Origin: an uncultured Clostridia bacterium
Lineage (GTDB): Bacteria; Bacillota; Clostridia; Christensenellales; Aristaeellaceae
NCBI GenBank assembly: GCA_947166385.1
Contig: CAMVEB010000018.1
Coordinates: 1 to 64,000 of the forward strand
Reading direction: 5' to 3'
Length of the DNA: 64,000 bases
Part shown: in pieces, positions 3,422 to 55,165 of the stretch
Numbering within the stretch: position 1 is the stretch's first letter
Layout: each line of letters starts with the position of its first letter
Position numbers and translations under genes: made by a program
Notes under the pieces: generated by a model
The model's input: only the letters and a program-made list of their open reading frames with translations
Database searches by the model: none
What the model was told of the DNA's origin: nothing

Positions 3422-3479
3422 CTCCTTTTGCTCCTATGCAGTTGGCAGACCGCACGGGTATTATAGCAAAAGGAGTTTT
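3422..3479 (+). terminator. Inverted repeat with T-run downstream of the bacteriocin-like gene
   Basis: Perfect 11-base arms CTCCTTTTGCT (3422-3432) and AGCAAAAGGAG (3465-3475), followed by TTTT, enclose a 32-base loop. It may be a terminator or a structured 3' end. Confidence 0.5.
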
Positions 3480-3512
3480 CATATCATTGGCATAGCTATA
3501 AGCTCTCCCGAA

Positions 3513-3535
3513 CCCCACGCCTAGCGTGGGGTTTT
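3513..3535 (+). terminator. Rho-independent terminator
   Basis: CCCCACGC-CTA-GCGTGGGG then TTTTA; a perfect 8-bp stem. Confidence 0.7.
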
Positions 3536-11135: not shown

Positions 11136-11460
11136 GTACACTTTGAGTACACTTCTCATGCGAGCCAAAACAAAACAGGTGAGAATCGCGAAAAACCGCA
11201 TCAAAAGCGAGCAAGTCCGCTACATTTTCAAGAGGATTATGCCTGCAATTTACTCATTGTGCGATTAACTATTCCTCCGGCTTTGGCAACACGTGCGCCT
11301 CTGTTGCCCCTCATCAGTCCGGGTTGAGCACAAACCCGATCGGCACGGCGTAGGCGGCACGTCGGGCCAAATAGGGCCGAAAAAAGGCCGCTTCGATTGA
11401 AGCAGCCTATCCCGATCGGAGCATTAATTCGTCCACAACTTGTGGACGAATTGAATATAG
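11136..11460. other. Gene-free stretch
   Basis: No plausible gene on either strand. There is a direct repeat GAGTACACTT at about 11142 and 11153 and some GC-rich hairpins around 11330-11395, but nothing assignable. Confidence 0.5.
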
Positions 11461-11489
11461 CTGATTCCTTCCATGCCGGAGAATCCAGT

Positions 11490-11610
11490 CCGCAGCCTCA
11501 ATCGGCTCGGAAAGGCCTTGGGGCGGCCTTTCCGCTTGTTTCGGCTGACTCTCTTACCTTCCTTCTGCCTTCGGCAGACAGCCCACCGGGCTGTCGGTCG
11601 GTTCGTTCCC
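11490..11610 (+). repeat. R1 structured repeat, copy A (variant)
   Basis: Starts CCGCAGCCTCAATCGGC and carries GCTTGTTTCGGCTGAC. Its first hairpin is CGGAAAGGCC (11508-11517) with GGCCTTTCCG (11525-11534), unlike copies B-F in sequence but still paired. The second half holds different hairpins (TCTGCC...GGCAGA, ACAGCCC...GGGCTGT). Confidence 0.7.
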
Positions 11611-11712
11611 CGCAGCCTCAATCGGCGCGACTCCACACTGTGGAGATTGCTTGTTTCGGCTGACCTCAGCTCTGACGAAACTTCTGCCACCGGCAGTCGT
11701 CAGAGCTTCGCC
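11611..11712 (+). repeat. R1 structured repeat, copy B
   Basis: 102 bp. Hairpin 1 CTCCAC/GTGGAG (11631-11636 / 11640-11645); hairpin 2 AGCTCTGACGA (11668-11678) with TCGTCAGAGCT (11697-11707), enclosing CTGCC/GGCAG. Exactly repeated in tandem as copy C. Confidence 0.85.
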
Positions 11713-11814
11713 CGCAGCCTCAATCGGCGCGACTCCACACTGTGGAGATTGCTTGTTTCGGCTGACCTCAGCTCTGACGAAACTTCTGCCACCGGCAGTC
11801 GTCAGAGCTTCGCC
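11713..11814 (+). repeat. R1 structured repeat, copy C (perfect tandem of B)
   Basis: Base-for-base identical to copy B, with a period of 102. The identity implies a recent duplication. Confidence 0.85.
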
Positions 11815-12009
11815 CGCAGCATCCGGCGCAAAGAAATCCTCCTGAAAAGCTTCCGGCCGCGACCGGAGCGCAGCCAGCTCCGGCGTGCCGGAAAGCCAGC
11901 AAAACAGCGGCAGAAAAATCTCCTGAAAATGCGTTTGTTCGCCTTGATTTTCAAAGAATCTTTGGCATAATAATATCAGCGGTCTGCCTGCTGTGTCCTG
12001 GTGAATCCC

Positions 12010-12038
12010 TTGCCCGGCATGGACAGGTATGATAAAAT
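12010..12038 (+). promoter_or_regulatory. Promoter of the Rpn-like gene
   Basis: TTGCCC (12010-12015), 17 bases, TAAAAT (12033-12038), 24 bases before the start. Absent from the truncated copy at 8411. Confidence 0.55.
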
Positions 12039-12061
12039 AAAACTGCTCGGAGGCGTCATGA

Positions 12062-12961
12062 ATGGCTGAAAAGAATATCCAGTGGCATCCCGGATTCTAC
12101 GCGGGAATTGAGCTTGAACTGAAGGCCTATCATCTTTCCTTCGAGCAGGAACACCAGCTGACTCGCGGACCGTTGTCGATCGACCTGCTGATCATCAAAA
12201 AGCTGATGGACGAGAAGATCGAAAACGATATTGCCGAGATGTTCTGCCGCCACAACGTGGTTGAATTCAAATCCCCGGAGGATGAGCTGAGCATTGACGT
12301 CTTTTTCAAGACGCAGGCGTATGCAGGATTGTATAAAGCCTCCGGCGAAACAGTCAATGAGATCCCTGCGGATGAGGTAACGGTATCGCTTTTCCGGGAT
12401 GTATATCCACGGGAAATGGTGGATCAGCTGAAAGCCCTGGGGTTTACCGTAACTCAGCGGCATCCGGGCATCTATCAGATCGACGGGAAACTCCCTTTCC
12501 CGACACAGCTGGTGGTAACAAGTCAGCTTCGTCCCGGACAGCACACGGTACTCCGGATTCTGTCGAATCACGCGGAGCAAAAAGATATCGAGGATTTTAT
12601 CAAAGCCTCCATGCACTACAAGGACAGCGGAGACCGGGCCCGGGCGGATTCCATCCTGCAGGTCAGCGCCTCCGCAAACAAAGCACTGTACCGGGAGATT
12701 TATCAGAGAGGAGATGCGAGCATGTGTGAAGCCCTGATGGAAATCATGAAAGATGATATCGATAAAAAAGTTGAACAAGGCAGAGCTGAAGGCGAAGCCA
12801 AAGGCAGAACAGAAGGTGAAGCCCAGGGCCGCATTGCGGAATCTGTCGTGATCTATCGCGACGAGATGAATCTGGATGACAGTTCTATCATCACCAAAAT
12901 ACGGGATAAATTCGGTCTTTCCCAGGAAACTGCCGAGGCATATGTCCTGGCTGAAAGATAA
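12062..12961 (+). CDS. Rpn-like PD-(D/E)XK nuclease-fold protein
   Basis: 299 aa; GGAGG 8 bases upstream (an ATG four bases earlier hits a stop at once). SIDLLIIKK...VVEFKSPEDELSIDVFFKTQAYA carries the D...ExK...Q pattern of PD-(D/E)XK nucleases near residues 40-100. The C-terminal part has GRAEGEAKGRTEGEAQGR repeats followed by a small helical domain (IRDKFGLSQETAEAYVL), the layout of Rpn/'nuclease family transposase' proteins that are multi-copy in Clostridia. These may assist RecA-independent recombination; no activity is shown for this one. A truncated relative lies at 8411-8779. Confidence 0.78.
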   Translation: MAEKNIQWHPGFYAGIELELKAYHLSFEQEHQLTRGPLSIDLLIIKKLMDEKIENDIAEMFCRHNVVEFKSPEDELSIDVFFKTQAYAGLYKASGETVNEIPADEVTVSLFRDVYPREMVDQLKALGFTVTQRHPGIYQIDGKLPFPTQLVVTSQLRPGQHTVLRILSNHAEQKDIEDFIKASMHYKDSGDRARADSILQVSASANKALYREIYQRGDASMCEALMEIMKDDIDKKVEQGRAEGEAKGRTEGEAQGRIAESVVIYRDEMNLDDSSIITKIRDKFGLSQETAEAYVLAER

Positions 12962-12986
12962 TCATCGTCATCATGACTCATTTTCC

Positions 12987-13014
12987 AGGGCGGTGCACGC
13001 TATGTGCGCCGCCC
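12987..13014 (+). terminator. Terminator after the Rpn-like gene
   Basis: AGGGCGG...CCGCCCT hairpin, the same as at 8805-8837 but with a weaker T run. Confidence 0.55.
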
Positions 13015-13038
13015 TTCACAGATTTCGCCCTGCCCCTT

Positions 13039-13474
13039 TTATCGGCATCCGCCGTCCGCCGGATCTTCCCCGTCCTCCGTTATTTCCTCCAGGCAGTTAA
13101 TCAGCTCATCCAGCTTATCGTCCAGCCTTTCCCATTCCTTCCAGGCCGGAGAATCCAGTCCGCAGCCTCAATCGGCGCGACTCCACACTGTGGAGATCGC
13201 TTGTTTCGGCTGACCTCAGCTCTGACGAAACTTCTGCCACCGGCAGTCGTCAGAGCTTCGCCCTCGCAGCATCCGGCGCAAAGAAATCCTCCTGAAAAGC
13301 TTCCAGCCGCGACCGGAGCGCAGCCAGTTCCGGCCGGCTCATCCCCCGGAATGACTCCGGATCCATCCGGTCAATCTCCCCCGCGGAAAACAGCGGAGGG
13401 GATTTCTTCTTCCGGAAATCCCGAAACAGCAGGTCCGTGCCGGGATTTGTGATCATCCCATACATGGTTTTCAC
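13039..13474 (-). pseudogene. Gene split by an R1 repeat (unknown family)
   Basis: The 5' part (13474-13262, GTG with GGAGG 8 bases upstream, directly after the previous stop) encodes MKTMYGMI...FSAGEIDRMDPESFRGMSRPELAALRSRLEAFQEDFFAPDAA. It then runs into the R1 copy and stops within four codons. The 3' part (13158-13039) continues as LDSPAWKEWERLDDKLDEL and INCLEEITEDGED, ending TAA. Removing about 103 bases joins them in frame as one ~110-aa, helix-rich acidic protein. The phrase resembling EEL-kMSPE-R also opens the 684-aa protein at 16256. Function unknown. Either broken, or restored by loss of R1. Confidence 0.6.
13159..13261 (+). repeat. R1 structured repeat, copy D (inside a gene)
   Basis: Near-identical to copies B and C, with TGGAGATCGC instead of TGGAGATTGC. 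It sits between codons for ...APDAAR and LDSPAW of the minus-strand gene 13039-13474. Confidence 0.8.
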
Positions 13475-13794
13475 TCAGAGATCCTCCAGCAGCCAGTCAA
13501 TTTCCTCCGCCTCGTCCATTCCGCAACCTCAATCGGCGCAGAGGCGTTACATCCGCCTCTGCTTGTTTCGGTTGACCTCGCCTCTGATGAAACTCCTGCC
13601 ACCGGCAGTCATCAGAGGTTCGCCCATTCCAGGGAATCTTTGACCCCGGTCATGACAGACTCACAGCCAGGACATACCGGAGCTGCTTCTTTATACCGCC
13701 GGCAGCATACAGAGCATTCATATTCCCCTTTTTCCAGAAGATGCGTATGATGAATCCAGTGCGGTTCTTCTTTTTTCTTTTTGATTCTGACCAT
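13475..13794 (-). pseudogene. Zinc-ribbon gene split by an R1 repeat
   Basis: The 5' part (13794-13624) encodes MVRIKKKKEEPHW...YECSVCCRRYKEAAPVCPGC...VKDSLEW. R1 then brings a stop four codons later. The 3' part (13519-13475) encodes MDEAEEIDWLLEDL and TGA. The relative at 2692-2883 reads VLDTQEWIDEEEEMDWMLSDD through the same point, so the two halves clearly belonged together. R1 ends in GAGGTTGCGGA just before ATGGAC, so the 3' half might restart. The last codons hold the ribosome site of the next gene. Confidence 0.7.
13520..13623 (+). repeat. R1 structured repeat, copy E (inside a gene)
   Basis: Hairpin 1 is GCAGAGGCG (13538-13546) with CGCCTCTGC (13554-13562); hairpin 2 is CCTCTGATGA (13581-13590) with TCATCAGAGG (13609-13618). 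Both stems differ from copies B-D but keep full pairing. Flanked on both sides by AATGG on the minus strand. Confidence 0.85.
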
Positions 13795-13861
13795 ATTATT
13801 CTCACCTGTCACTTTATAAATACGGAAACGGCTGAGCCGAACCGATTAATATCCAATATCA

Positions 13862-45835: not shown

Positions 45836-47815
45836 ATGAATACTATCCTATCCGCGCTGGAGCACCTGCGGTGTTCCGAGCTGGACCATGCCGACTGGAT
45901 TCGGGTCGGCATGGCCCTGAAATCAGAAGGCTATGACGTATCCGTCTGGGACGAATGGAGTAGCCGGGATCCGGCCCGGTATCACCCCGGAGAGTGCGCC
46001 CGGCGGTGGAGAAGCTTCCAGGGCAGCGATGTGCCGGTCACCGGGGCATCGATTGTGAAGATGGCGCAGGACCGGGGATGGCAGCGCGGCGTCATGGACT
46101 GGAACGACGTGCTGGAATACGACGGCGCGCGAAGCGATCCCGACTCGCAGGAGCCTGTCCGGACGCCCACGGAAGAGCTGATCCTGTACCTGCAGACGCT
46201 GTTTGAACCCGGGGATTATGTCGGGTATGTGACGAACGACGCATGGCAGACGGACGACGGCAGGTGGGTGCCCGCCAAGGGCGTGTATTACCGGACGGCC
46301 GGGGAGCTGATCGAATCGCTGCAGCGGTATCCGGACGACATGGGGGCGACCGTCGGCGACTGGAAACCGGAGGCCGGGGCGTGGATCCGGTTCAACGCGC
46401 TGGACGGCAAGGGCGTGCGGAACGAGAACGTTGTGAAATTCCGGTACGCGCTGGTGGAATCGGACGTGATGCCGATTGACGAGCAGATCCTGATGTACCG
46501 GAAACTGGAGCTGCCGATCGCCGCGCTGGTGCACAGCGGGCGCAAGAGCGTGCACGCGATCGTGCGAGTCGACGCGGAGAGCTTCGAGGAATACCGGAAG
46601 CGCGTGACCTTCCTGTACGATTTCCTCGCCTCCCACGGCGTGAAGGTGGATACCCAGAACCGAAACCCGAGCCGTTTATCCCGGATGCCCGGGGTGACCC
46701 GGAACGGGCAGGCGCAGAAGCTGCTGGGCGTGAACATCGGGCGGAAAAGCTGGGTGGACTGGATGGATTTCGCGGAGGGGGCGGCGGACGAGCTGCCGGG
46801 GATGAGCCCGCTGTCGGAATACGCGGAGCATCCGCCGGATCTGCCGGAGGAGCTGATCAAGGGCATTCTGCGGCAGGGGCATAAGATGCTGATCTCGGGC
46901 AGCAGCAAGGCCGGGAAATCCTTCCTGCTGATGGAATTATGCATCGCCATCGCGGAGGGGATCCCCTGGCTGGGGTTCCCGTGCAAGCAGGGGAAGGTGC
47001 TGTATGTGAACCTGGAGATCGACCCGGCAAGCGGCATCAACCGGTTTATGAAAATCTACGAGGCGATGAAGCTGCCCGCAAGGCATATGGAAAATATCCT
47101 GATCTGGAACCTGCGCGGGCATGCCGTGCCGCTGGACCAGCTGGTGCCGAAGCTGGTCCGGCGGCTGCGGGATCAGCGGCTGAGCGCGATTATCATCGAC
47201 CCGATCTACAAGGTCATCACCGGGGATGAAAACAGCGCCTCCGACATGGCGGCATTCTGCAACCAATTCGATAAGATCTGCAACGAGACGGGGTGCAGCG
47301 TGATCTACTGCCACCACCACTCGAAGGGCGCGCAGGGGGCGAAGCGGACGATTGACCGGGCCTCCGGCAGCGGGGTTTTCGCCCGGGATCCTGACGCGCA
47401 GCTGGACATGATTGAGCTGGAACTGTCTGAAGAAGTACAGAACCTTGTCGCGGAGCGCGGCGCCACCGCCTGGCGGATGGAATGCAGCCTGCGGGAATTC
47501 CGGAACTTTGAGCCGGTGGATTTCTGGTTTGAATATCCGCTCCACCGGGTGGACAGCAGCGAAAGTCTGCGGGAGATGCCGGCGCAGGGAACCTTTGACG
47601 CCGGGAAACTCAAGAATAAGTTTTCCAAAAGCACAGAAAACGCCGAGCGAGAATTCCGTACCGCGTATGACGCGCTCAATCTGGATGGCACCGTTACCGT
47701 GAAAGATATGACAGATTACCTGGGCTGCAGCGACAAGACCATCTATGCGCGGCTGAAAAAGATGAACGGCGAATATATCCTGAAAGGCGGGAGAATTAAA
47801 CATGAATCGATATGA
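45836..47815 (+). CDS. Phage primase-helicase (PriCT-like start, RepA-type AAA)
   Basis: 659 aa. SELDHADWIRVGMALKSEGYD...DEWSSRDPARYHPGEC is a PriCT_2-type domain (residues 10-70); the middle resembles an archaeo-eukaryotic primase region (ALVHSGRKSVHAIVRVDA); ISGSSKAGKSFLLMEL (Walker A near 358), IIIDPIYKVITGD and CHHHSKG form a RepA-like helicase. A small HTH closes it. It should prime and unwind phage DNA. Confidence 0.82.
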   Translation: MNTILSALEHLRCSELDHADWIRVGMALKSEGYDVSVWDEWSSRDPARYHPGECARRWRSFQGSDVPVTGASIVKMAQDRGWQRGVMDWNDVLEYDGARSDPDSQEPVRTPTEELILYLQTLFEPGDYVGYVTNDAWQTDDGRWVPAKGVYYRTAGELIESLQRYPDDMGATVGDWKPEAGAWIRFNALDGKGVRNENVVKFRYALVESDVMPIDEQILMYRKLELPIAALVHSGRKSVHAIVRVDAESFEEYRKRVTFLYDFLASHGVKVDTQNRNPSRLSRMPGVTRNGQAQKLLGVNIGRKSWVDWMDFAEGAADELPGMSPLSEYAEHPPDLPEELIKGILRQGHKMLISGSSKAGKSFLLMELCIAIAEGIPWLGFPCKQGKVLYVNLEIDPASGINRFMKIYEAMKLPARHMENILIWNLRGHAVPLDQLVPKLVRRLRDQRLSAIIIDPIYKVITGDENSASDMAAFCNQFDKICNETGCSVIYCHHHSKGAQGAKRTIDRASGSGVFARDPDAQLDMIELELSEEVQNLVAERGATAWRMECSLREFRNFEPVDFWFEYPLHRVDSSESLREMPAQGTFDAGKLKNKFSKSTENAEREFRTAYDALNLDGTVTVKDMTDYLGCSDKTIYARLKKMNGEYILKGGRIKHESI

Positions 47816-47884
47816 CCAAAATTCTTCTTTCTACGCTGTTTGTATAAATAGAATAGAAGAAGAAAAAACCGTTCGTTACACTCC

Positions 47885-47925
47885 CGAAGTGGGAATGACT
47901 TCCTAAGGTCAGTCATTCCCCTTCG
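47885..47925 (+). terminator. Hairpin after the primase-helicase gene
   Basis: GGGAATGAC (47891-47899) pairs with GTCATTCCC (47912-47920), extended by CGAAG/CTTCG. No clear T run; may be a processing or regulatory hairpin. 47926-48019 holds no gene. Confidence 0.45.
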
Positions 47926-48019
47926 AGGACTGCAACAGTAACCCCCCACCCCAACCGGGCCACACAGGCAAAAGGAGGCTTAGAAAACCGATGAATGAGA
48001 AAGCAGAGGAGGAAGCATC

Positions 48020-48256
48020 ATGCGGAGAAACTGGGAAGCGCTGGCAAACGCGATTGTTTCTCAGGCCGTCACCGATTACCGGATCGCCCGGTACATGGCC
48101 CGGGTGTACCGGTATCGGGAAACATCGCGGGCCATCATCCGGGAAGTGGAGCATTTCTTCCGATCCCGGTGGTTTAACCAGCTGACAGACATTGACGGCA
48201 AAGCGCTGATCAGAAACCTGAGGGAGGAAGATGTATGGACGTTCAAGAATACCTGA
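48020..48256 (+). CDS. Small basic phage protein
   Basis: 78 aa, GAGGAGG upstream; overlaps the activator gene by 22 bases. Helical, Arg-rich (DYRIARYMARVYRYRETSRAIIREVEHFF). Unknown function. Confidence 0.5.
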   Translation: MRRNWEALANAIVSQAVTDYRIARYMARVYRYRETSRAIIREVEHFFRSRWFNQLTDIDGKALIRNLREEDVWTFKNT

Positions 48257-48675
48257 AACAGGGATATCTGCTGGATCAGCGGATCAACTATCACCTGCGC
48301 AGGCTGGAGGAGACGAAAAACATGATTGACGGCGTCAACTCTCCGTTGATCAGGCCAGACAAGGTAAAGACATCCCCGGACGGAGAAGCGCCCTATGTGA
48401 AAGCGTATCTGAAGATGTCCGAACTGAACGAGCGGATTAATCAGGAGATCGATCTGCTGTTTGATTTGCGGAATCAGATCGAGGAAGCGATCCGTACCGT
48501 CGGACCTGAGAGACATCGTCTGGTCCTGCTTTACAAGTATATTGAGGGGCGGACATGGGAGGACATCGGTATCATGCTCAATGCCGACAAAAGCACCGTG
48601 AAGCGCTGGCATCAGGAAGCGCTGCAGATGGTGAAAATGCCGGAAAACCCGATTGTCATCCAGAACATGCAGTAA
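48235..48675 (+). CDS. RinA/ArpU-like late transcription activator (DUF1492-type)
   Basis: 146 aa. N-terminal coiled coil (INYHLRRLEETKNMIDGV...LNERINQEIDLLFDLRNQIEEAI) and C-terminal region-4-like HTH (LVLLYKYIEGRTWEDIGIMLNADKSTVKRWHQEAL). Proteins of this layout lie just before terminase genes and switch on late transcription. Three 10-base-spaced repeats 30 bases downstream are its likely target. Confidence 0.78.
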   Translation: MDVQEYLKQGYLLDQRINYHLRRLEETKNMIDGVNSPLIRPDKVKTSPDGEAPYVKAYLKMSELNERINQEIDLLFDLRNQIEEAIRTVGPERHRLVLLYKYIEGRTWEDIGIMLNADKSTVKRWHQEALQMVKMPENPIVIQNMQ

Positions 48676-48705
48676 GGAGGAAAAAAGCGGAAATTTTTTT
48701 CAAAG

Positions 48706-48732
48706 TGAGCCGGTATGAGCCGAAATGAGCCG
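48706..48732 (+). promoter_or_regulatory. Three TGAGCCG iterons at 10-base spacing
   Basis: TGAGCCG starts at 48706, 48716 and 48726, one DNA turn apart, just after the activator gene and before a TTGACT/TATGAT-bearing leader. Candidate activator binding array for the late promoter. Confidence 0.6.
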
Positions 48733-48744
48733 AGACAAGCTCCC

Positions 48745-48813
48745 TTGACTTATGATATGATACACTTGGCAAAATTGGATGAGGGATCCCGGAAGAAATT
48801 CCGGGATTTTTTC
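48745..48813 (+). promoter_or_regulatory. Late leader, copy 1: promoter-like block plus attenuator hairpin
   Basis: TATGATATGATACACTTGGC and the following 11 bases are repeated at 49476-49506. A 9-bp stem ATCCCGGAA/TTCCGGGAT (48786-48794 / 48799-48807) and T run follow, 88 bases before the next gene. Confidence 0.6.
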
Positions 48814-48894
48814 ATGGACAAAAACAAGGAGGAATACGGAATGCGTGATGGAGCCCAGACATGAATCAAAAAAACATGATGAGGAGGAAACCGC

Positions 48895-49473
48895 ATGAAC
48901 AACCATACACCGGTCAAAATCCCGGAGCTGCCGGGAAAGATCTTTCTGGAAAAAAAGGACAACGGGGTCTATGTGAGATACCTGCTGGGGCGAACATATG
49001 ACAGGGACCGGCAATTCAACGTACCGGAATACAAGGTGATCGGGGTGCAGCTGGAACACATGCCCGGGCTGATGCTGCCCAACGACAACTATGAAGCCTA
49101 CTTCGACAGCCGGGGGATTGAACTGAGCGAGCAGGCGCGGGATCAGGAGGAGAGCTTCGCGGGTCCGGCCCCGACCGAAGAGGAGGAAACCTATCTCCGC
49201 AAACGGGAGATTTTCAAAACCTATGTTCCCTACTTCAACGACCTGTTCTACGAGATCCGCGGGCAGAGCAAACGAAGCCAGTACGAAAAGATCAGCGATT
49301 ACCTGATTACGAGCCTGAACGCCGTGCTGGCGAAGATGCTGGAGATGCTGGAGGGGGAAAAGGGGACGGAGATGCTGCAGCTGATTGAGAAAGAGATGAA
49401 ATACAACGAGGTGATGGTGCTGCTGACGCAGTTCAAGAGCGCCATCTTCGAATTCCGATATGAGAAGATGTAG
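48895..49473 (+). CDS. Pre-terminase phage protein, unknown
   Basis: 192 aa, GGAGG upstream. N-terminal half beta-rich (NGVYVRYLLGRTYDRDRQFNVPEYKVIGV), then acidic linker and helical C-terminus. Occupies the small-terminase position but has no visible HTH. A small-terminase role is possible by location only. Confidence 0.5.
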   Translation: MNNHTPVKIPELPGKIFLEKKDNGVYVRYLLGRTYDRDRQFNVPEYKVIGVQLEHMPGLMLPNDNYEAYFDSRGIELSEQARDQEESFAGPAPTEEEETYLRKREIFKTYVPYFNDLFYEIRGQSKRSQYEKISDYLITSLNAVLAKMLEMLEGEKGTEMLQLIEKEMKYNEVMVLLTQFKSAIFEFRYEKM

Positions 49474-49475
49474 GA

Positions 49476-49536
49476 TATGATATGATACACTTGGCAAAAC
49501 TGGATGGAAACCCCGGAAGATTCCGGGGTTTTTTGC
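49476..49536 (+). promoter_or_regulatory. Late leader, copy 2, before terminase
   Basis: Matches copy 1 at 30 of 31 bases (TATGATATGATACACTTGGC...TGGATG). Its hairpin ACCCCGGA/TCCGGGGT (49510-49517 / 49522-49529) differs from copy 1 at both sides of the same base pair, so pairing is conserved; a T run follows. Confidence 0.65.
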
Positions 49537-49548
49537 GTGGAGGGAAAA

Positions 49549-50811
49549 ATGGATCCGAGATGGGAAGCGGCTTTCACGAAAGTGGAAGCGCTGATGGAAG
49601 GGCATCTGGAGAACATCGGGCAGCTGGCGGGGTTTTCGGACCTGACGGCGCTGCACGGGGAATGGATCCACGAGATGGTCCACGGACACGGGGACTATAC
49701 CCTGCAGGCGCACCGGGGGAGCTACAAGAGCAGCTGCCTGGCGGTGGCGATCGCGCTGATCATGATCCTGGACAGGAAGCGGAACATCATCTTCCTGCGG
49801 AAGGCGGACAACGACGTGGCCGAGATGCTGGGGATGGTGCGGAAAATCCTGAAGAACGACGAATTCAAGGCGATGACCTGCACGATGTACGGGGAGCCGG
49901 TGGAGATCATCTCCGAGGGAGCGGACCACCTGAGCACGAGCCTGTGGCAAAGCCCGATGGGGGCGCAGCAGCTGCTGGGGCTGGGGCTGAAGTCCTCGAT
50001 CACGGGGAAGCACGCGTACTACGTGATCACGGACGATATCTGCAACCTTTCCGACCGGATCAGCCGGGCGGAAAGGGAGCGGACAAAGCTGCAGTACGAC
50101 GAGCTGCAGAACATCCGGAACCGGGGCGGACGGATCATCAACCTGGGGACGCCATGGCACAAGGAAGACGTGTTCAGCCGGATGCCGAACATCCACCGGT
50201 ATGACTGCTATACCACCGGGCTGATCGCGCCGGAAAAACTGGACGAACTGCGCCAGAGCATGGCGCCTTCCCTGTTCGCGGCGAACTACGAGCTGGTGCA
50301 CATCGCGTCGGAAGAGGCGTACTTCGAGACATCGCCGGTGTTCACGGACGACGTGACCGTGCTGCGGGACGGGATCTCGCACATCGACGCCGCGTACGGC
50401 GGGCAGGACTATACCGCCTTTACCTGCGGGGCGCGGCGGGACGGGGTGATCTACCTGTACGGGCGGCTGTGGCACAGGCACGTGGACTGCGTGCTGGACG
50501 AGATCCTGGCCGAGGCCGACCGGCTGATGTGCTGGCCGATGTACTGCGAGGACAACGGGGACAAGGGTTTCCTGCGGAAGGAGATCATCGACCGGGACCG
50601 CTACGGGAAAAGGTATACCGAGCAGCAGAACAAGGTGATCAAGATTTCATCCTACCTGCGGAAATGGTGGCCGAAGATCGTATTCGTGCGGGGAACGGAC
50701 GCGGAGTATATCAACCAGATCATGGACTATACCGAGCAGGCGGAGCACGACGACGCGCCGGACAGCGCGGCGGTGGTGTGCCGGTACTGGGACCGGAGGG
50801 ACTATCTGTAA
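49549..50811 (+). CDS. terL: Terminase large subunit
   Basis: 420 aa from MDPRWEAA, GGAGG upstream. LQAHRGSYKSSCLAVAIAL (Walker A-like, near 55), FLRKADNDVAEML, AYYVITDDICN (Walker B), then the nuclease part HIDAAYGGQDYTAFTCG and CEDNGDKGFLRKEI. It packages DNA into the capsid with ATP power. Confidence 0.88.
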   Translation: MDPRWEAAFTKVEALMEGHLENIGQLAGFSDLTALHGEWIHEMVHGHGDYTLQAHRGSYKSSCLAVAIALIMILDRKRNIIFLRKADNDVAEMLGMVRKILKNDEFKAMTCTMYGEPVEIISEGADHLSTSLWQSPMGAQQLLGLGLKSSITGKHAYYVITDDICNLSDRISRAERERTKLQYDELQNIRNRGGRIINLGTPWHKEDVFSRMPNIHRYDCYTTGLIAPEKLDELRQSMAPSLFAANYELVHIASEEAYFETSPVFTDDVTVLRDGISHIDAAYGGQDYTAFTCGARRDGVIYLYGRLWHRHVDCVLDEILAEADRLMCWPMYCEDNGDKGFLRKEIIDRDRYGKRYTEQQNKVIKISSYLRKWWPKIVFVRGTDAEYINQIMDYTEQAEHDDAPDSAAVVCRYWDRRDYL

Positions 50812-50826
50812 GGAGAGAGCAACAGG

Positions 50827-52122
50827 ATGGGAAGCAAGAAGAGAAAGGCGATCATCCGGGCGATGGACGGATATGCCAACGCGGCGGCCTTCCTGGGGGA
50901 AAGCTCGGAGCTGATCTCGTCGGGGACCTACCTGCGGTCGCACCTGACATCGAAGACGGAGCTGCTGACGGCGGCGTACCGGGAATTCTGGATCGCGACG
51001 CGGATCATCGACATGCCGGCCGAGGACGCGACCCGGGCGTGGTATACGCTGACCGGGGACATCCCGGCCGAGGACATGGCGGCGCTGCGGCGGACCGAGG
51101 CAAGGCACGGGATCAAGCGGGAGATCACCGACGCGATAAGGTGGGCCCGGCTGTACGGCGGGGCGCTGGCGCTGATCGTGATCCGGGGACAGGAAGACCG
51201 GCTGGAGACGCCGCTGGATCTGGACACGCTGGGGCCCGGATGCTTCCAGGGGCTGCTGGTGATCGACAAATCGATGGGGGTCTCCCCTTCCCTGGAGCTG
51301 GAGGACGACCTGGACGATCCGGACTTCGGGCTGCCGATGTGGTACACCGTGGACCTGGAGGACGGGAAAAGCGTGAAGATTCATCACTCGCGGGTGCTGC
51401 GGTTCGTCGGACGGGAGCTGCCGCGGATGGAGATGATCCGGGAGAGCTACTGGGGCGCCAGCGAGCTGGAGCACCTGTGGGACGAGCTGCAGAAGCGGTC
51501 GGCGACATCGGCGAACATCGCGCAGCTGGTTTTCCAGGCGAACATCACGACGCTGAAGATGGGCGACACGGGCGAGATGCTGGTGCTGGGGGACGACCGG
51601 AAGAAGGAAAAGGTGCTGGACATGGTGGCGAAGGAGAACCGGATCCGAACGAGCTTCGGGATCCAGCTGCTGGACAGCAACGACTCCATCGAAAGCCACA
51701 GCTATTCCTTCGCCGGGCTGACGGACGTGTACGAAGCGTTCATGATGGACATCGCGGGGGCCGCGGAGATCCCAGCGACGAAGCTGTTCGGGCGGTCGCC
51801 CCAGGGATTCCAGTCCACGGGGGAAAGCGACCTGCGGAACTACTACGAGACGATCAGCGGGCTGCAGGAGCGGCACCTGCGGCCGGCGCTGGAGCGGCTG
51901 CTGCCGGTGATGGCGATCAGCAGCTGGGGATACCTGCCGGAGAACCTGAGCTTCATCTTCAACCCGATCGCGGCGGAATCGCCGAAGGAGCTGGCGGAAC
52001 TGGCGGAAAAGCTGACGGCGCCGGTGATCGAGGCGTACCGGAGCGGGCTGATTACGAAAGATCAGGCGGTGGCGGAGCTGAAGATCCGGGGAGAGCCGCA
52101 CGGACTGTTTACGAAGATCTGA
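50827..52122 (+). CDS. Phage portal protein (DUF1073-type)
   Basis: 431 aa. REFWIATRIIDMPAEDATRAWYTLTG, ARLYGGALALIVIRGQED and FGRSPQGFQSTGESDLRNYYETISGLQE match DUF1073 portals. Forms the DNA entry ring at the capsid vertex. Very G/C-rich third positions (cgg, ctg) like the rest of the late genes. Confidence 0.85.
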   Translation: MGSKKRKAIIRAMDGYANAAAFLGESSELISSGTYLRSHLTSKTELLTAAYREFWIATRIIDMPAEDATRAWYTLTGDIPAEDMAALRRTEARHGIKREITDAIRWARLYGGALALIVIRGQEDRLETPLDLDTLGPGCFQGLLVIDKSMGVSPSLELEDDLDDPDFGLPMWYTVDLEDGKSVKIHHSRVLRFVGRELPRMEMIRESYWGASELEHLWDELQKRSATSANIAQLVFQANITTLKMGDTGEMLVLGDDRKKEKVLDMVAKENRIRTSFGIQLLDSNDSIESHSYSFAGLTDVYEAFMMDIAGAAEIPATKLFGRSPQGFQSTGESDLRNYYETISGLQERHLRPALERLLPVMAISSWGYLPENLSFIFNPIAAESPKELAELAEKLTAPVIEAYRSGLITKDQAVAELKIRGEPHGLFTKI

Positions 52123-52135
52123 AAGGAGGGATGGT

Positions 52136-52183
52136 TTGAACTACTTTGGAACACGGCTGTCGGAAAACATTTCCAGAAGAGAT
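52136..52183 (+). pseudogene. Stranded first codons of a DUF2213 gene, interrupted by R1
   Basis: A TTG start with AAAGGAGG upstream opens MNYFGTRLSENISRRD, then R1 begins. After R1, 52287 on continues PEGLQAKYI and a stop. The intact gene 140 bases on starts MQYYGTKLSENISLRRPEG. So this is a diverged duplicate of that gene's 5' end. Confidence 0.65.
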
Positions 52184-52286
52184 TCCGCAACCTCAATCGG
52201 CGCGGCTCCACACTGTGGAGACCGCTTGTTTCGGTTGACCTCACCTCTGACGAAACTTCCGCCACTGGCGGTCGTCAGAGGTTCGC
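52184..52286 (+). repeat. R1 structured repeat, copy F (in the prophage)
   Basis: Hairpin 1 CTCCAC/GTGGAG (52206-52211 / 52215-52220); hairpin 2 CCTCTGACGA (52244-52253) with TCGTCAGAGG (52272-52281), inner CCGCC/GGCGG (52259-52263 / 52267-52271) where other copies have CTGCC/GGCAG. Antisense to the gene relation seen for copies D and E. Confidence 0.85.
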
Positions 52287-52325
52287 CCCGAGGGCCTTCA
52301 GGCCAAGTATATTTGAGGTGATAGT

Positions 52326-53681
52326 ATGCAGTATTACGGTACAAAGTTATCTGAAAACATTTCTCTCCGAAGGCCTGAAGGATACCTGTTATGCCTGAAT
52401 GTGCCGGTGGCGCGGTCGGGTACGCAGGAATACTGGCCGGAGGAACTGGGGGTGATGCAGACCGGGAACGGGATGACACGACGGGACGGGATGGTCCCGG
52501 TATACCGGCCGGAAGAGGAGGTGTTTGCGACCGAAACGATGGCGTCCTTCGAGGGGATGCCGGTGACCAACGACCACCCGAGGGACGGGGTCGACATCGA
52601 GAACATCCGGCGGGTGCAGGCCGGGCACGCGCACAACATCCGCAGGGGGCTTGGCGAGGAATCCGATCTGCTGCTGGCGGACCTGATCATCACCGACCCG
52701 GGGCTGATCGACGCGATCCTGCAAGGGAAACGGGAGATCAGCTGCGGGTATACGTATGAACTGCACGAGGAAAACGGACAATATATCCAGAGGAAGATAC
52801 GCGGGAACCATATCGCCGTGGTGGATGCCGGGCGGGCCGGGCCCCGCGTTTCGATTAAAGATCACAAAAAGGACCACAAAAAAGAAAGGAAGGTATCTGG
52901 TATGAAGAAATCCCTGACAAAAGTGCTGGCCCGGATGGCCAAGGACGGCGACGCGGAGACCGTCGCGGAAATCATTGAGGAGCTGATCGGCGACCCTACC
53001 GAAGAGGAGGAAACGGGCGCCACGGCCGGCGCGCCTGCTGCCGAAAATGCCGGAAATGCCGAAAACAAGAGCGAGGGGGCTGCGGTGGAAATCGAAACCA
53101 AAGAAGGAAACAAGGTCACGGTCGACGAGGACGCGCTGACGGCTGTGACCGAGCGGCTGGACCAGCTGATCACCATGTTCGCGCCGCTCATCGAGCCGAT
53201 GAAGCAGCTGATCGCGGTGATGGCGCTGAACGCGCCGGCGGCTGAGGATGAGGAGCCGGAGGAAGGCGCGATCCAGCCGGAGGAGATCGCCGAGATCGTT
53301 GAAGAGGTGCTGGAGACGAAGGAGAACGAGGCGCCCGCGGATGCCGCGGAGGAAGTCGCGGAGATCATCGGGAAGGTGCTGGAACCGCCGATCACCGGCG
53401 TGACGGAGGAAGAAGAGGAAGAGGAAGAGCCTGCCGAATCCGCCGCGGTGACGGACGCGCTGAAGGCGACGCTGCTGGCTTTCCGCCCGAGGCTCCAGGA
53501 CATGACACCGCGGGAGCGGCAGAAGACCTGCATCGACATCGCCAGGCGGCTGTACGGAAAGCCCCGGAAGGGAAACGACAGCGCGTCCATCGGGATGATG
53601 AGACGGCCAAAGGCGCGGCGGAACCCGCGGGATCTGGGGAAGCGGATCATGGAGAGCCGGAACGCGAACTGGCGGAAATGA
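52326..53681 (+). CDS. DUF2213 protein: prohead protease/scaffold
   Basis: 451 aa, GAGGTGAT just upstream. Residues 1-180 are DUF2213 (ETMASFEGMPVTNDHP, GKREISCGYTYELHEENGQYI, GNHIAVVDAGRAGPRV), a head-maturation protease-like domain. The rest is a Glu/Ala-rich coiled scaffold (VAEIIGKVLEPPITGVTEEEEEEEEP) and a basic tail. It probably guides capsid assembly and is then cut. Confidence 0.8.
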   Translation: MQYYGTKLSENISLRRPEGYLLCLNVPVARSGTQEYWPEELGVMQTGNGMTRRDGMVPVYRPEEEVFATETMASFEGMPVTNDHPRDGVDIENIRRVQAGHAHNIRRGLGEESDLLLADLIITDPGLIDAILQGKREISCGYTYELHEENGQYIQRKIRGNHIAVVDAGRAGPRVSIKDHKKDHKKERKVSGMKKSLTKVLARMAKDGDAETVAEIIEELIGDPTEEEETGATAGAPAAENAGNAENKSEGAAVEIETKEGNKVTVDEDALTAVTERLDQLITMFAPLIEPMKQLIAVMALNAPAAEDEEPEEGAIQPEEIAEIVEEVLETKENEAPADAAEEVAEIIGKVLEPPITGVTEEEEEEEEPAESAAVTDALKATLLAFRPRLQDMTPRERQKTCIDIARRLYGKPRKGNDSASIGMMRRPKARRNPRDLGKRIMESRNANWRK

Positions 53682-53698
53682 GAAAGGGGTGACGGCAG

Positions 53699-54184
53699 AT
53701 GGGCAAAGTGCTGAAGAATTTCAACAACGGATTCCCGGGGGCTGTGTCCCGGTCCGTGGATGAGGTGATTGTCTCGCTGCGGAACGGAAGCGGCGGGGAG
53801 ATCGAATTCGGGAAACCGGTTTTCCTGAAGACGGACGGATCCAACGCCGTGACGGTTTTCGACTCCTCGATGAGCGACGCGACCCGGTTCGTCGGGTTCA
53901 CGGTGCGCGACGGGGACAAGACGCCGGAGGAATATGGTTCCTCCACAGCGGTGTGGAAGAACAACGAGCCGGCGGACATTCTGGTGCGCGGGAGCATCGT
54001 GGTCCAGATCGAGACCGCGGCGACGCCGGGGCAGCAGGTGTATATCCGGGTATCGGACGGAAAGCTGACGACAAGCGCCGGATCCAGCGGATCCACCATC
54101 GCGCTGCCGCACGTGAACGCGCGGACGGCGCGGGACAACACGGGACGGTGCGAGATCACCGTCAAAGAACGGAATATTGTATAA
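53699..54184 (+). CDS. Capsid decoration/cement-type protein
   Basis: 161 aa; beta-rich throughout (EIEFGKPVFLKTDGSNAVTVF, RFVGFTVRDGDKTPEEYG, ADILVRGSIVVQIE). Position between scaffold and major capsid fits a head decoration protein. No catalytic motif. Confidence 0.65.
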   Translation: MGKVLKNFNNGFPGAVSRSVDEVIVSLRNGSGGEIEFGKPVFLKTDGSNAVTVFDSSMSDATRFVGFTVRDGDKTPEEYGSSTAVWKNNEPADILVRGSIVVQIETAATPGQQVYIRVSDGKLTTSAGSSGSTIALPHVNARTARDNTGRCEITVKERNIV

Positions 54185-54199
54185 GGAGGAGCCTGGCTT

Positions 54200-55165
54200 A
54201 TGAGTATTTTGACCCCGGCGGTCCGGGATATGACCGCGTATGACGCGTATGTGTTCCTGGAGAAGGAACTGGAGAAAATCGACGAGACGATTCTGGAGCC
54301 CCTGGTCGGGACGGACTGGCCGCGGGATATGCCGGTCGTCACCGGGGGCGGACTGCTGGAGACGATTGCCAGCATCGACGTGACGTATGCCTCCACCGGG
54401 ATGGACGACGACAATATCTTCTACGACGCGGCGAATGATATTCCCGTGATCCAGGCGGATATGAGCAAGTCGGTGGCGAGGTGCTTCAACTTCGCGGAAT
54501 TCATGGCGTTCAACCTGATGGAGAAGGACAAGATGCTGTCCGTCGGGCGGGATCCGGAGACGTTCCTGAACAAGGGGATCCGGCTGCACTGCGACAAGGT
54601 GATCGACCGGAATGTGTACGTCGGATTCAAGAAGGTGAACTCCTGCGGGCTGTGCAACAACCCGGCGATCTCCCGGTCGTCCGCGGTGCCGAACGCGGGA
54701 GGGACATCGACCCGGTGGAGCCAGAAGACAGCGGACGAGGTGCTGACGGATATCAACTACGCGCTGTCCGCCGTGTGGCGGGACAACGACTGCAGCAGCG
54801 ACGCGCTGCCGAACCACATCCTGATCCCGGTGGAGCAGTTTGGGCTGCTGGCGACAAGGAAGGTGTCGGATGATTCGGAGAGGTCGATCCTGACGTATGT
54901 GGAGCAGAACAATATCGCGGCGAAGCAGGGGAAGAGTCTGGTGATCTCGCCGTGCAAGTGGTGCGCGGGGATCGGGTCGGACAGCAGCGACAGGATGGTT
55001 GTGTACTGCAACCAGGTGGATCGGATTTGCTTTAATCTGACGCAGCCGCTGCGAAGGATGGAGACGGAGTATCACAACATGCGCGTGAAGATTCCGTATA
55101 TCGCGCAGTTCTCGGAGGTACGGTTTTTGTATCCGTCAACCGTCAGATATATGGACGCTATTTAA
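54200..55165 (+). CDS. Major capsid protein (DUF2184)
   Basis: 321 aa, AAGGAGG upstream. WPRDMPVVTGGGLLETIASIDVTYAS, ARCFNFAEFMAFNLMEKDKMLS and the C-terminal LTQPLRRMETEYHNMRVKIPYIAQFSEVRFLYPSTV fit DUF2184 capsids. HK97-like shell subunit. Confidence 0.82.
   Translation: MSILTPAVRDMTAYDAYVFLEKELEKIDETILEPLVGTDWPRDMPVVTGGGLLETIASIDVTYASTGMDDDNIFYDAANDIPVIQADMSKSVARCFNFAEFMAFNLMEKDKMLSVGRDPETFLNKGIRLHCDKVIDRNVYVGFKKVNSCGLCNNPAISRSSAVPNAGGTSTRWSQKTADEVLTDINYALSAVWRDNDCSSDALPNHILIPVEQFGLLATRKVSDDSERSILTYVEQNNIAAKQGKSLVISPCKWCAGIGSDSSDRMVVYCNQVDRICFNLTQPLRRMETEYHNMRVKIPYIAQFSEVRFLYPSTVRYMDAI

Follow-up and report, generated by a model that had tools for sequence, protein, structure and literature searches.

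Palindrome-associated transposable elements (PATEs), derived from IS200/IS605 insertion sequences, carry a hairpin at each end and insert beside a short adjacent target, with neither target duplications nor terminal inverted repeats. Repetitive extragenic palindromic sequences (REPs) are described as palindromes of 20–50 nt preceded by GTAG (PMC8266576), and the CGTC-tagged kind as an 8–9 bp stem with the CGTC tag and a short tail (PMC3733652). In the Bacillus cereus group, bcr1–bcr18 are mobile DNA repeats of 100–400 bp; their mechanism is only proposed, bcr1 is present in tens of copies per genome of one taxon, and the mobility of bcr repeats is tied to TTTAT motifs (PMC6542083). Here, we describe R1, a repeat family found in a 64,000-nt stretch of DNA (the window: positions 1 to 64,000 of contig CAMVEB010000018.1, assembly GCA_947166385.1) from an uncultured Clostridia bacterium of the family Aristaeellaceae. 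R1 is probably a non-autonomous mobile DNA element of ~105 nt, made of two adjacent imperfect hairpins, which an enzyme supplied in trans would move while it is folded and single-stranded, a reading that we hold with moderate confidence.

R1 works like REP or IS200/IS605-derived elements, but comparison either sets it outside these groups or leaves its membership open. It resembles REPs and bacterial interspersed mosaic elements in its short hairpins, which lie mostly between genes or downstream of coding regions and are often grouped; E. coli REPs also have bulged stems, and some REP families sit inside other palindromes (PMC8266576, PMC3733652). It differs from REPs in its length, in having two hairpins in one fixed order, in stems that are unlike between copies of one genome, in a consensus without GTAG, and in not standing beside the REP-associated tyrosine transposase (RAYT)-like genes that we examined. 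The CGTC-tagged REPs do not accommodate it either: the letters CGTCC end 10 of 33 varied copies and 7 of 95 genus copies, but R1 has a bulged stem of 11 + 5 bp, and stem, size and tail all differ. Hairpins and the lack of terminal inverted repeats are shared with PATEs, as is, at the two sites compared, insertion beside a short target without clear duplication, whereas we found no parental insertion sequence whose ends are those of R1, and Y1 transposase genes do not appear to track R1. The attC sites are likewise folded single-strand sites in which structure outweighs letters, but we saw no cassettes between copies in the R1 arrays that we read, and the target is different; no integrase search was run. 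Finally, bcr1 is similar in size, copy number and taxonomic restriction, compared by description and not by sequence; however, the R1 target is GG/CC, and letter counts of 95 flanks from the window's genus contained no TTTAT motif of the kind described for bcr repeats (PMC6542083).

Insertion sites

Two of the six window copies (copies 4 and 5, Table 1) have sisters in the same genome in which no R1 match was found (L268 for copy 4; L270 and L271 for copy 5). At the copy 4 site, the empty locus L268 reads CTGCGGGG then GGAATACTCC, and the filled one CTGCGAGG, R1 and CTGGATTCTCC. At the copy 5 site, the empty L270 reads GAATGG then GTAGACGAGG, and the filled one GAATGG, R1 and ATGGACGAGG. In both comparisons R1 stands behind GG on the bottom strand (before CC on the top strand, which is the + strand of the window copies), to within 1–2 nt, and there is no clear target duplication. 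These comparisons show R1 to be an insertion behind GG on its bottom strand.

Permease-like gene ends gave a similar picture. A motif search returned 16 such ends; the motif demanded AAR and accepted GGN, GAR or GCN ahead of the stop. The 13 that carry R1 all read AARGG then ATGA, with R1 contributing the TGA stop; the three without R1 all read GGN-TAA. Ten of the 33 copies of alignment A2 (described below) have T-A in place of C-G as the pair formed by the end letter, and T-A is the form at permease ends. Genus copies ending in CATCC lie at permease ends by eye in seven cases out of seven (L328, L332, L341, L362, L378, L382 and L386, two of them with common flanks). Tested for a target of the IS200/IS605 type, R1 thus gave insertion behind GG at two same-genome sites and 13 permease ends, and repeated flanks in 26 of 158 copies. 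Miniature inverted-repeat elements of DDE transposons are a poor match: R1 has no terminal inverted repeats (its ends in A2 are TCCGCA and TTCRY), and a short fixed target duplication is missing at copy 4, while at copy 5 AATGG stands on both sides and the sister sequence misfits a duplication.

In a prophage, copy 6 splits the beginning of a DUF2213 gene, and behind the copy this gene starts anew. In a related prophage (L079), whose DNA is 72–78% identical over the aligned parts, an R1 with other stems occupies the same place. The eight DUF2213 relatives in viral contigs were too distant to provide an empty site, and the three inspected had no R1. One host repeat carries R1 at two different points (L054, L056, L088 and others); this host repeat itself has two hairpins, GGGGGCTGCGCGCCCCC ... 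CCAGGG..CCCTGG.

Fold and covariation

Alignment A2 has 33 rows: 55 unique pattern matches gave 51 of length 95–112, of which 34 were non-redundant, and the truncated L066 was removed. On the top strand, R1 in A2 reads T-CCG, hairpin 1, A, hairpin 2 and then the target CC; the insert begins with TCCGCA and ends at the base of hairpin 2. The stem of hairpin 1 is imperfect and has an outer part CARCC/GGYTG, a core CTCAAT-CGGC / GCTTG-TTTC and a variable inner stem. In hairpin 2 an 11-bp stem is followed by a bulge of 5 nt on one side and then by a stem of 5 bp. RNA folding gave z values of -5.05 to -6.07 for four + strand sequences (two window copies and two relatives), and no shuffle equals them.

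The original prediction had described six window copies of a ~102-nt repeat, with two hairpins whose stems covary between copies and with a consensus for which it knew no named family. All six are present on the + strand, their covariance-model coordinates at most 1–2 nt off the predicted starts, and the hairpin arms are as described. Hairpin 2 in the predicted form is present in five of them and not in six, because the copy at 11489 has only the left half in common and its right half differs. The 102 nt proved to be the tandem spacing; 32 of the 34 non-redundant elements are 104–107 nt long including the terminal CC. Covariation, with the fold kept while letters change, extends to larger alignments, and a covariance-model search of related genomes found further copies outside the window. 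As for a named family, none of 4227 Rfam families matched R1 in the window at the gathering score; at E <=5, five weak hits in 11400–13700 all scored below it, and one of them (E 1.9) lay across copy 5, on the minus strand. A title and abstract search of a partial paper collection likewise revealed no such family named in Clostridia. The right-core motif GCTTGTTTCGGYTGAC has six exact matches in the window, and seven at <=3 mismatches against 1.04 expected; 0 of 100 shuffles reached seven.

Stem letters differ widely between copies, also inside one genome, while the arms remain complementary. In A2, 24 of 35 pairs were changed on both sides, with 165 such cells against 43.8 in shuffles, and 99.0% of cells were paired (84.2% in shuffles, 24–43% after sliding the partners). 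The genus set was drawn from 80 loci in three near-complete genomes of the genus and comprised 103 model matches, 96 of them distinct, with other subtypes among them. Here, both-side changes occurred in 31 of 34 pairs (625 cells vs 165 shuffled) and pairing reached 95.6% (32–46% in slid controls), in an alignment that was fitted to the covariance model and is biased towards it. Even the conserved core varies pairwise (CGGC/GCTTG, CGTC/GCTCG, GGTC/GCTCCC and AGTC/GCTCCTT); alignment A6 has a one-column shift between core variants. Covariation of columns 58/59 with 104/105 in A2 was considered as a guide or cleavage-site signal and rejected, as genus copies suggest that hairpin 2 reaches the element end with mismatches allowed.

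A DNA hairpin tolerates G-U pairs less than RNA does. In 88 genus rows of >=98 nt, Watson-Crick double changes numbered 587 cells, against 32 G-U and 17 A-C cells (two core pairs, often G-U, omitted). In 74 varied rows, G-U accounted for 14 and A-C for 7 of ~2368 cells (two core pairs, mostly G-U, omitted). In a small tRNA control, by comparison, G-U made up 7 of 226 cells in 11 of the 15 distinct tRNAs from the examined loci (Fisher p 0.0014 vs R1). The excess of G-U over A-C on the top strand (32 vs 17, p 0.044) weakly indicates that this is the folded strand.

Genomic contexts

Gene calls made with a simple coding score placed R1 between genes in 83 of 91 contexts from mixed genomes, with 32 pairs of neighbours in -/-, 24 in +/+, 15 convergent and 12 divergent orientation. 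In 93 genus contexts, the 3' end of the right neighbour faced R1 in 53 of 80 cases (p 0.005), and in 33 of 43 within 150 nt (p 0.0006), p values that treat copies as independent while arrays and orthologs make the counts dependent; the left neighbours were unbiased (39 and 41). tRNA genes were present in 15 of 80 genus loci, and in 13 of these 15 the right end of R1 lay 25–118 nt behind the tRNA 3' end, as read from coordinates, with orthologs among the loci. Inspected by eye, the largest gene clusters of 100 genus loci were sugar ABC permease and binding-protein genes (13–14 loci) and translations of the repeats themselves; R1 often lies between permease and solute-binding-protein genes.

These data bear on whether R1 is instead a structured RNA, for instance a cis-acting or 3'-end-stabilising one, multiplied by duplication and retained because of what it does as RNA. 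The strongly covarying fold is what such an RNA would have, and the top-strand excess of G-U over A-C (32 vs 17, and 14 vs 7 in the smaller count) and the frequent place behind gene 3' ends, between permease and solute-binding-protein genes, agree with it. G-U pairs are nevertheless rare, at 14 of ~2368 cells against the 7 of 226 in the tRNAs and 32 cells in the genus set, and it is the bottom strand that is co-transcribed with upstream genes, whereas the weak strand signal favours the top. Together with the spread over all four gene orientations in mostly intergenic contexts, and with the nested insertions described below, this makes a structured RNA unlikely. The original prediction had named such an RNA as one option; its covarying fold stood, and the option itself was weakened by the few G-U pairs, the varied gene contexts and the nesting. 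Having inserted, some copies may possibly take on an RNA role, e.g., as an intercistronic hairpin in permease operons.

Subtypes, nesting and arrays

R1 copies enter other hairpins. An R1 of the other subtype lies in the hairpin 1 loop of an R1 at L408 and L413, and R1 lies within an other-subtype copy at L415 and L416. A second hairpin family (core GGGGCTGCCGCCCGTT...GGGCGYTCCGAACCC), which has a stem that likewise covaries, is nested in R1 and in a host palindrome; we found 12 distinct copies (Table 1). In a further R1 subtype, hairpin 1 is very short (GCGAGCAAGCTCGC) and the right half is again different (L033, L050, L055, L060, L104 and others), with 9–10 exact-core copies per genome (G064/G093, G083). 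Tandem arrays, with the 102-nt spacing in the window, occur in other genomes as well.

Truncated copies break in or beside the hairpin 2 loop (L041, L115, L126, L337, L339); deletion hot spots, contig ends or assembly breaks are alternative explanations. Direct and inverted pieces of tRNA 3' ends alternate with R1 units behind tRNA-Met and tRNA-Ala genes (L330, L377, L401, L338).

Distribution

With 150 candidates scored in each genome, the covariance model matched 44, 41, 50 and 41 times in four near-complete genomes of the window's genus (G276, G297, G298 and G325), 20 times in the window's genome and three times in G026. The exact core was present in 3 of 80 genomes of the family, in 3 of 200 of the order (scanned with a slightly looser pattern; all three belong to the window's genus) and, of 391 genomes of the class, in a single one, that of the window. 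Among genomes of known kinship, the exact core is confined to the window's family. The genus may be Aristaeella. The core pattern was further found in at least 118 stretches of genome contigs; the 80 listed are metagenome-assembled genome (MAG) records of Clostridia, Clostridiales or Oscillospiraceae, many of them ruminant and mostly without given kinship. Two ruminant MAGs, those of loci L035 and L039, seem to lie within the genus, because their transposase coordinates equal those of two genus members.

A 721-nt window stretch (two R1 copies and host sequence) used as a BLAST query, with 12 candidates scored per genome, matched 37 of 45 genus genomes at E <=0.001, and among the matches listed outside the own genome an R1 part of the query was covered. 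Distant blastn against phage and plasmid collections gave no R1 match. Viral contigs with the core pattern numbered one stretch and then two, the second of which (L211) has four model matches. Several R1 copies lie at contig ends.

Search for the mobilising enzyme

Y1_Tnp (PF01797) was matched in 7 of 18 R1 genomes, and in 28 of 45 genus genomes, among them 11 of the 13 best assemblies, many assemblies being incomplete. No match was found in the R1-rich G081 (17 exact-core copies), G097 (12) and G089 (7). Of 38 Y1 loci examined, which include two places entered twice and cover about half of the genus Y1 matches, one contains R1, and there it lies outside the insertion sequence, as judged by a 99.6% identical copy of the latter. 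This sole IS200 copy beside R1 ends before R1. A Y1 transposase was set aside as the mobiliser, since in the genomes and loci covered the genome counts, loci and the insertion sequence comparison gave no link to R1.

Two further possibilities were rejected. The gene at 12062 matched only itself among the frames beside R1 and had no Pfam or NCBIfam match. An autonomous R1 with a gene between its hairpins was sought in 12 loci with odd model matches (L408–L419; left ends by motif, with no motif match in L412). The 190 nt behind these left ends, in which no gene-family search was made, lead mostly into nested hairpin elements or other right halves.

RAYT-like frames of 245–334 aa are present in all four near-complete genus genomes, and the best NCBIfam match of the protein from the window's genome is a REP-associated tyrosine transposase, at 56.1 bits under a cut-off of 80. 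Both observations fit R1 being a true REP-like element mobilised by these proteins. R1 is absent, however, from 22 RAYT-like loci, has no GTAG tag, varies in its stems inside one genome and is abundant in the three genomes named above, which have no Y1_Tnp match. In 19 of the 22 loci we found no stretch common to three or more other loci, and L310 and L324 share other sequence. At L315 a different repeat of ~37 nt lies on both sides of the RAYT-like gene (~958–995 and 1921–2040, with three tandem units on one side); it also occurs in the R1 loci L330 and L335, and is a candidate for that protein's own REP-like element. We therefore consider mobilisation of R1 as a REP by the genus RAYT-like proteins quite unlikely.

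No mobiliser was identified, because R1 lies outside the Y1 insertion sequence and is absent from the RAYT-like loci examined, and the RAYT-like score is below the cut-off. The original prediction had suggested a non-autonomous REP- or IS200-like hairpin element. Its first half, a non-autonomous mobile hairpin element, is borne out by empty sites and nesting; membership among REP or IS200 elements by association is not, given the Y1 counts and the single R1 in 38 loci.

Window copies and their surroundings

The window copies and neighbouring features are given in Table 1. The gene at 12062–12961, which we take to be Rpn-like and which has no Pfam or NCBIfam match, is flanked by two partial copies of the same host segment, both containing R1; the region 11464–13334 looks like a segmental duplication around R1. 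Prophage-type genes lie at 45836–55165 (a primase/AAA protein, DUF2213, a structural cement protein and the major capsid protein). Rfam STnc490 was matched at 3425–3533 on the minus strand (72.1 bits against a gathering score of 56). STnc490 is a small RNA named from enterobacteria, and the match is odd in a Clostridia genome.

Table 1. R1 copies in the window, flanking host features and loci of the second hairpin family
Feature	Position or locus	Strand	Basis and remarks
R1 copy 1, other subtype, R1 left half (stem CGGAAAGGCC/GGCCTTTCCG) joined to another right half	11489..11611	+	Weaker covariance match, 42.7 bits over 11489–11587; first unit of three-unit array, end at 11611 set by next unit
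R1 copy 2, end letters in common with copy 3	11609..11713	+	Covariance model
R1 copy 3, tandem partner identical to copy 2, 102-nt spacing	11711..11815	+	Covariance model
R1 copy 4, within 3' part of minus-strand reading frame	13159..13263	+	Covariance model; R1-free sister L268
R1 copy 5, near 3' end of small minus-strand gene	13520..13625	+	Covariance model; R1-free sisters L270, L271
R1 copy 6, inside start of prophage DUF2213 gene	52184..52288	+	Covariance model
Left host flank of array, part of 46-nt repeat, 96% like 13134–13179	11464..11488	-	Repeat D2
Right host flank of array, 97% like 13265–13334, repeated piece of same host frame	11815..11884	-	Repeat D3
5' piece of host frame split by copy 4, start approximate	13264..13480	-	Read by eye and sister comparison
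5' piece of small gene split by copy 5, start approximate	13626..13797	-	Read by eye and sister comparison
First, cut-off DUF2213 gene start, left of copy 6	52136..52183	+	Read by eye
Second start and full DUF2213 gene, right of copy 6	52326..53681	+	
Second hairpin family copies	L409–L411, L414–L417, L419, L425, L427, L220, L113		

Discussion

We propose that R1 moves while single-stranded and folded, through an enzyme supplied in trans, because the element has no terminal inverted repeats, leaves no clear duplication at the compared sites, enters hairpin loops and has few G-U pairs. An enzyme encoded elsewhere would recognise R1 by its shape and bulges, and would cut and join one strand by the logic of IS200/IS605 and REP transposition, with which the analogy is drawn. 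Copies would then be retained where an insertion costs the host little, namely at stop codons, behind tRNA genes, between genes of an operon and inside other repeats. Candidates for the enzyme are found among the RAYT-like and IS200-like proteins in the genus.

Several observations speak against this reading. Direct flank repeats (alignment score >=30) accompany 26 of 158 copies, compared with 1.3% of random pairings, and inverted flank matches 7 of 158, compared with 0.5%. An R1-like core was found in 4 of the 26 repeated pieces; among the 22 without it, several are tRNA ends or other repeats. Clear flank duplications of 41 nt (L091), 55 nt (L079), ~102 nt (L330) and 140 nt (L011) are unexplained by simple insertion behind GG; that of L091 surrounds the beginning of a gene that is broken at its codon 7, and that of L330 is a tRNA end with its terminator. 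The AATGG on both sides of copy 5 makes a short duplication conceivable, the misfit of the sister notwithstanding. As for the enzyme, 11 of the 18 R1 genomes and 17 of the 45 genus genomes, many of them incomplete, had no Y1_Tnp match; many R1 genomes gave no match to the RAYT-like and IS200-like proteins, and a different repeat lies beside one RAYT-like gene. No R1 was found in the 22 RAYT-like loci, which reach up to ~1.5 kb each side. By eye, no transposase was recognised in the largest gene clusters beside R1, on which no family search was run.

A structure that persists although copies in the same genome differ in their stem letters, along with tandem arrays, would also be expected of an attC-like folded site recombined by a structure-reading tyrosine recombinase outside any integron. 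We regard this as very unlikely, as the arrays that we read hold no cassettes between copies and the GG target is unlike the attC cleavage triplet; recombinase genes were not searched. Movement through an RNA copy and reverse transcriptase, as a bacterial counterpart of short interspersed nuclear elements, would suit the right end lying behind gene 3' ends and tRNA genes and the flank duplications of varied length in some copies, but it is highly improbable, given that neither of the two sites compared has a clear duplication; no search for reverse transcriptases was made.

Returning to R1 as a mobile hairpin element, we tentatively suggest that R1, its longer subtype and the nested second hairpin family may form an undescribed class of mobile DNA. 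Its enzyme might read the two-hairpin shape and not the sequence, so that dozens of copies could stay mobile in one genome and subfamilies could come to fit fixed harbours such as self-restored permease stops and tRNA ends.

The genus in which R1 is abundant has ruminant-gut genomes among its members; R1 nests with related hairpin families, enters prophages and interrupts genes. It affects annotation and assembly, because copies lie in prophages, interrupt genes, stand at stop codons and behind tRNA genes, and several are found at contig ends. Since shape and bulges are kept while stem letters drift, the recognition rules of a mobile hairpin could be read from natural variation. The enzyme, if found, may be a transposase or recombinase that reads the shape of single-stranded DNA.

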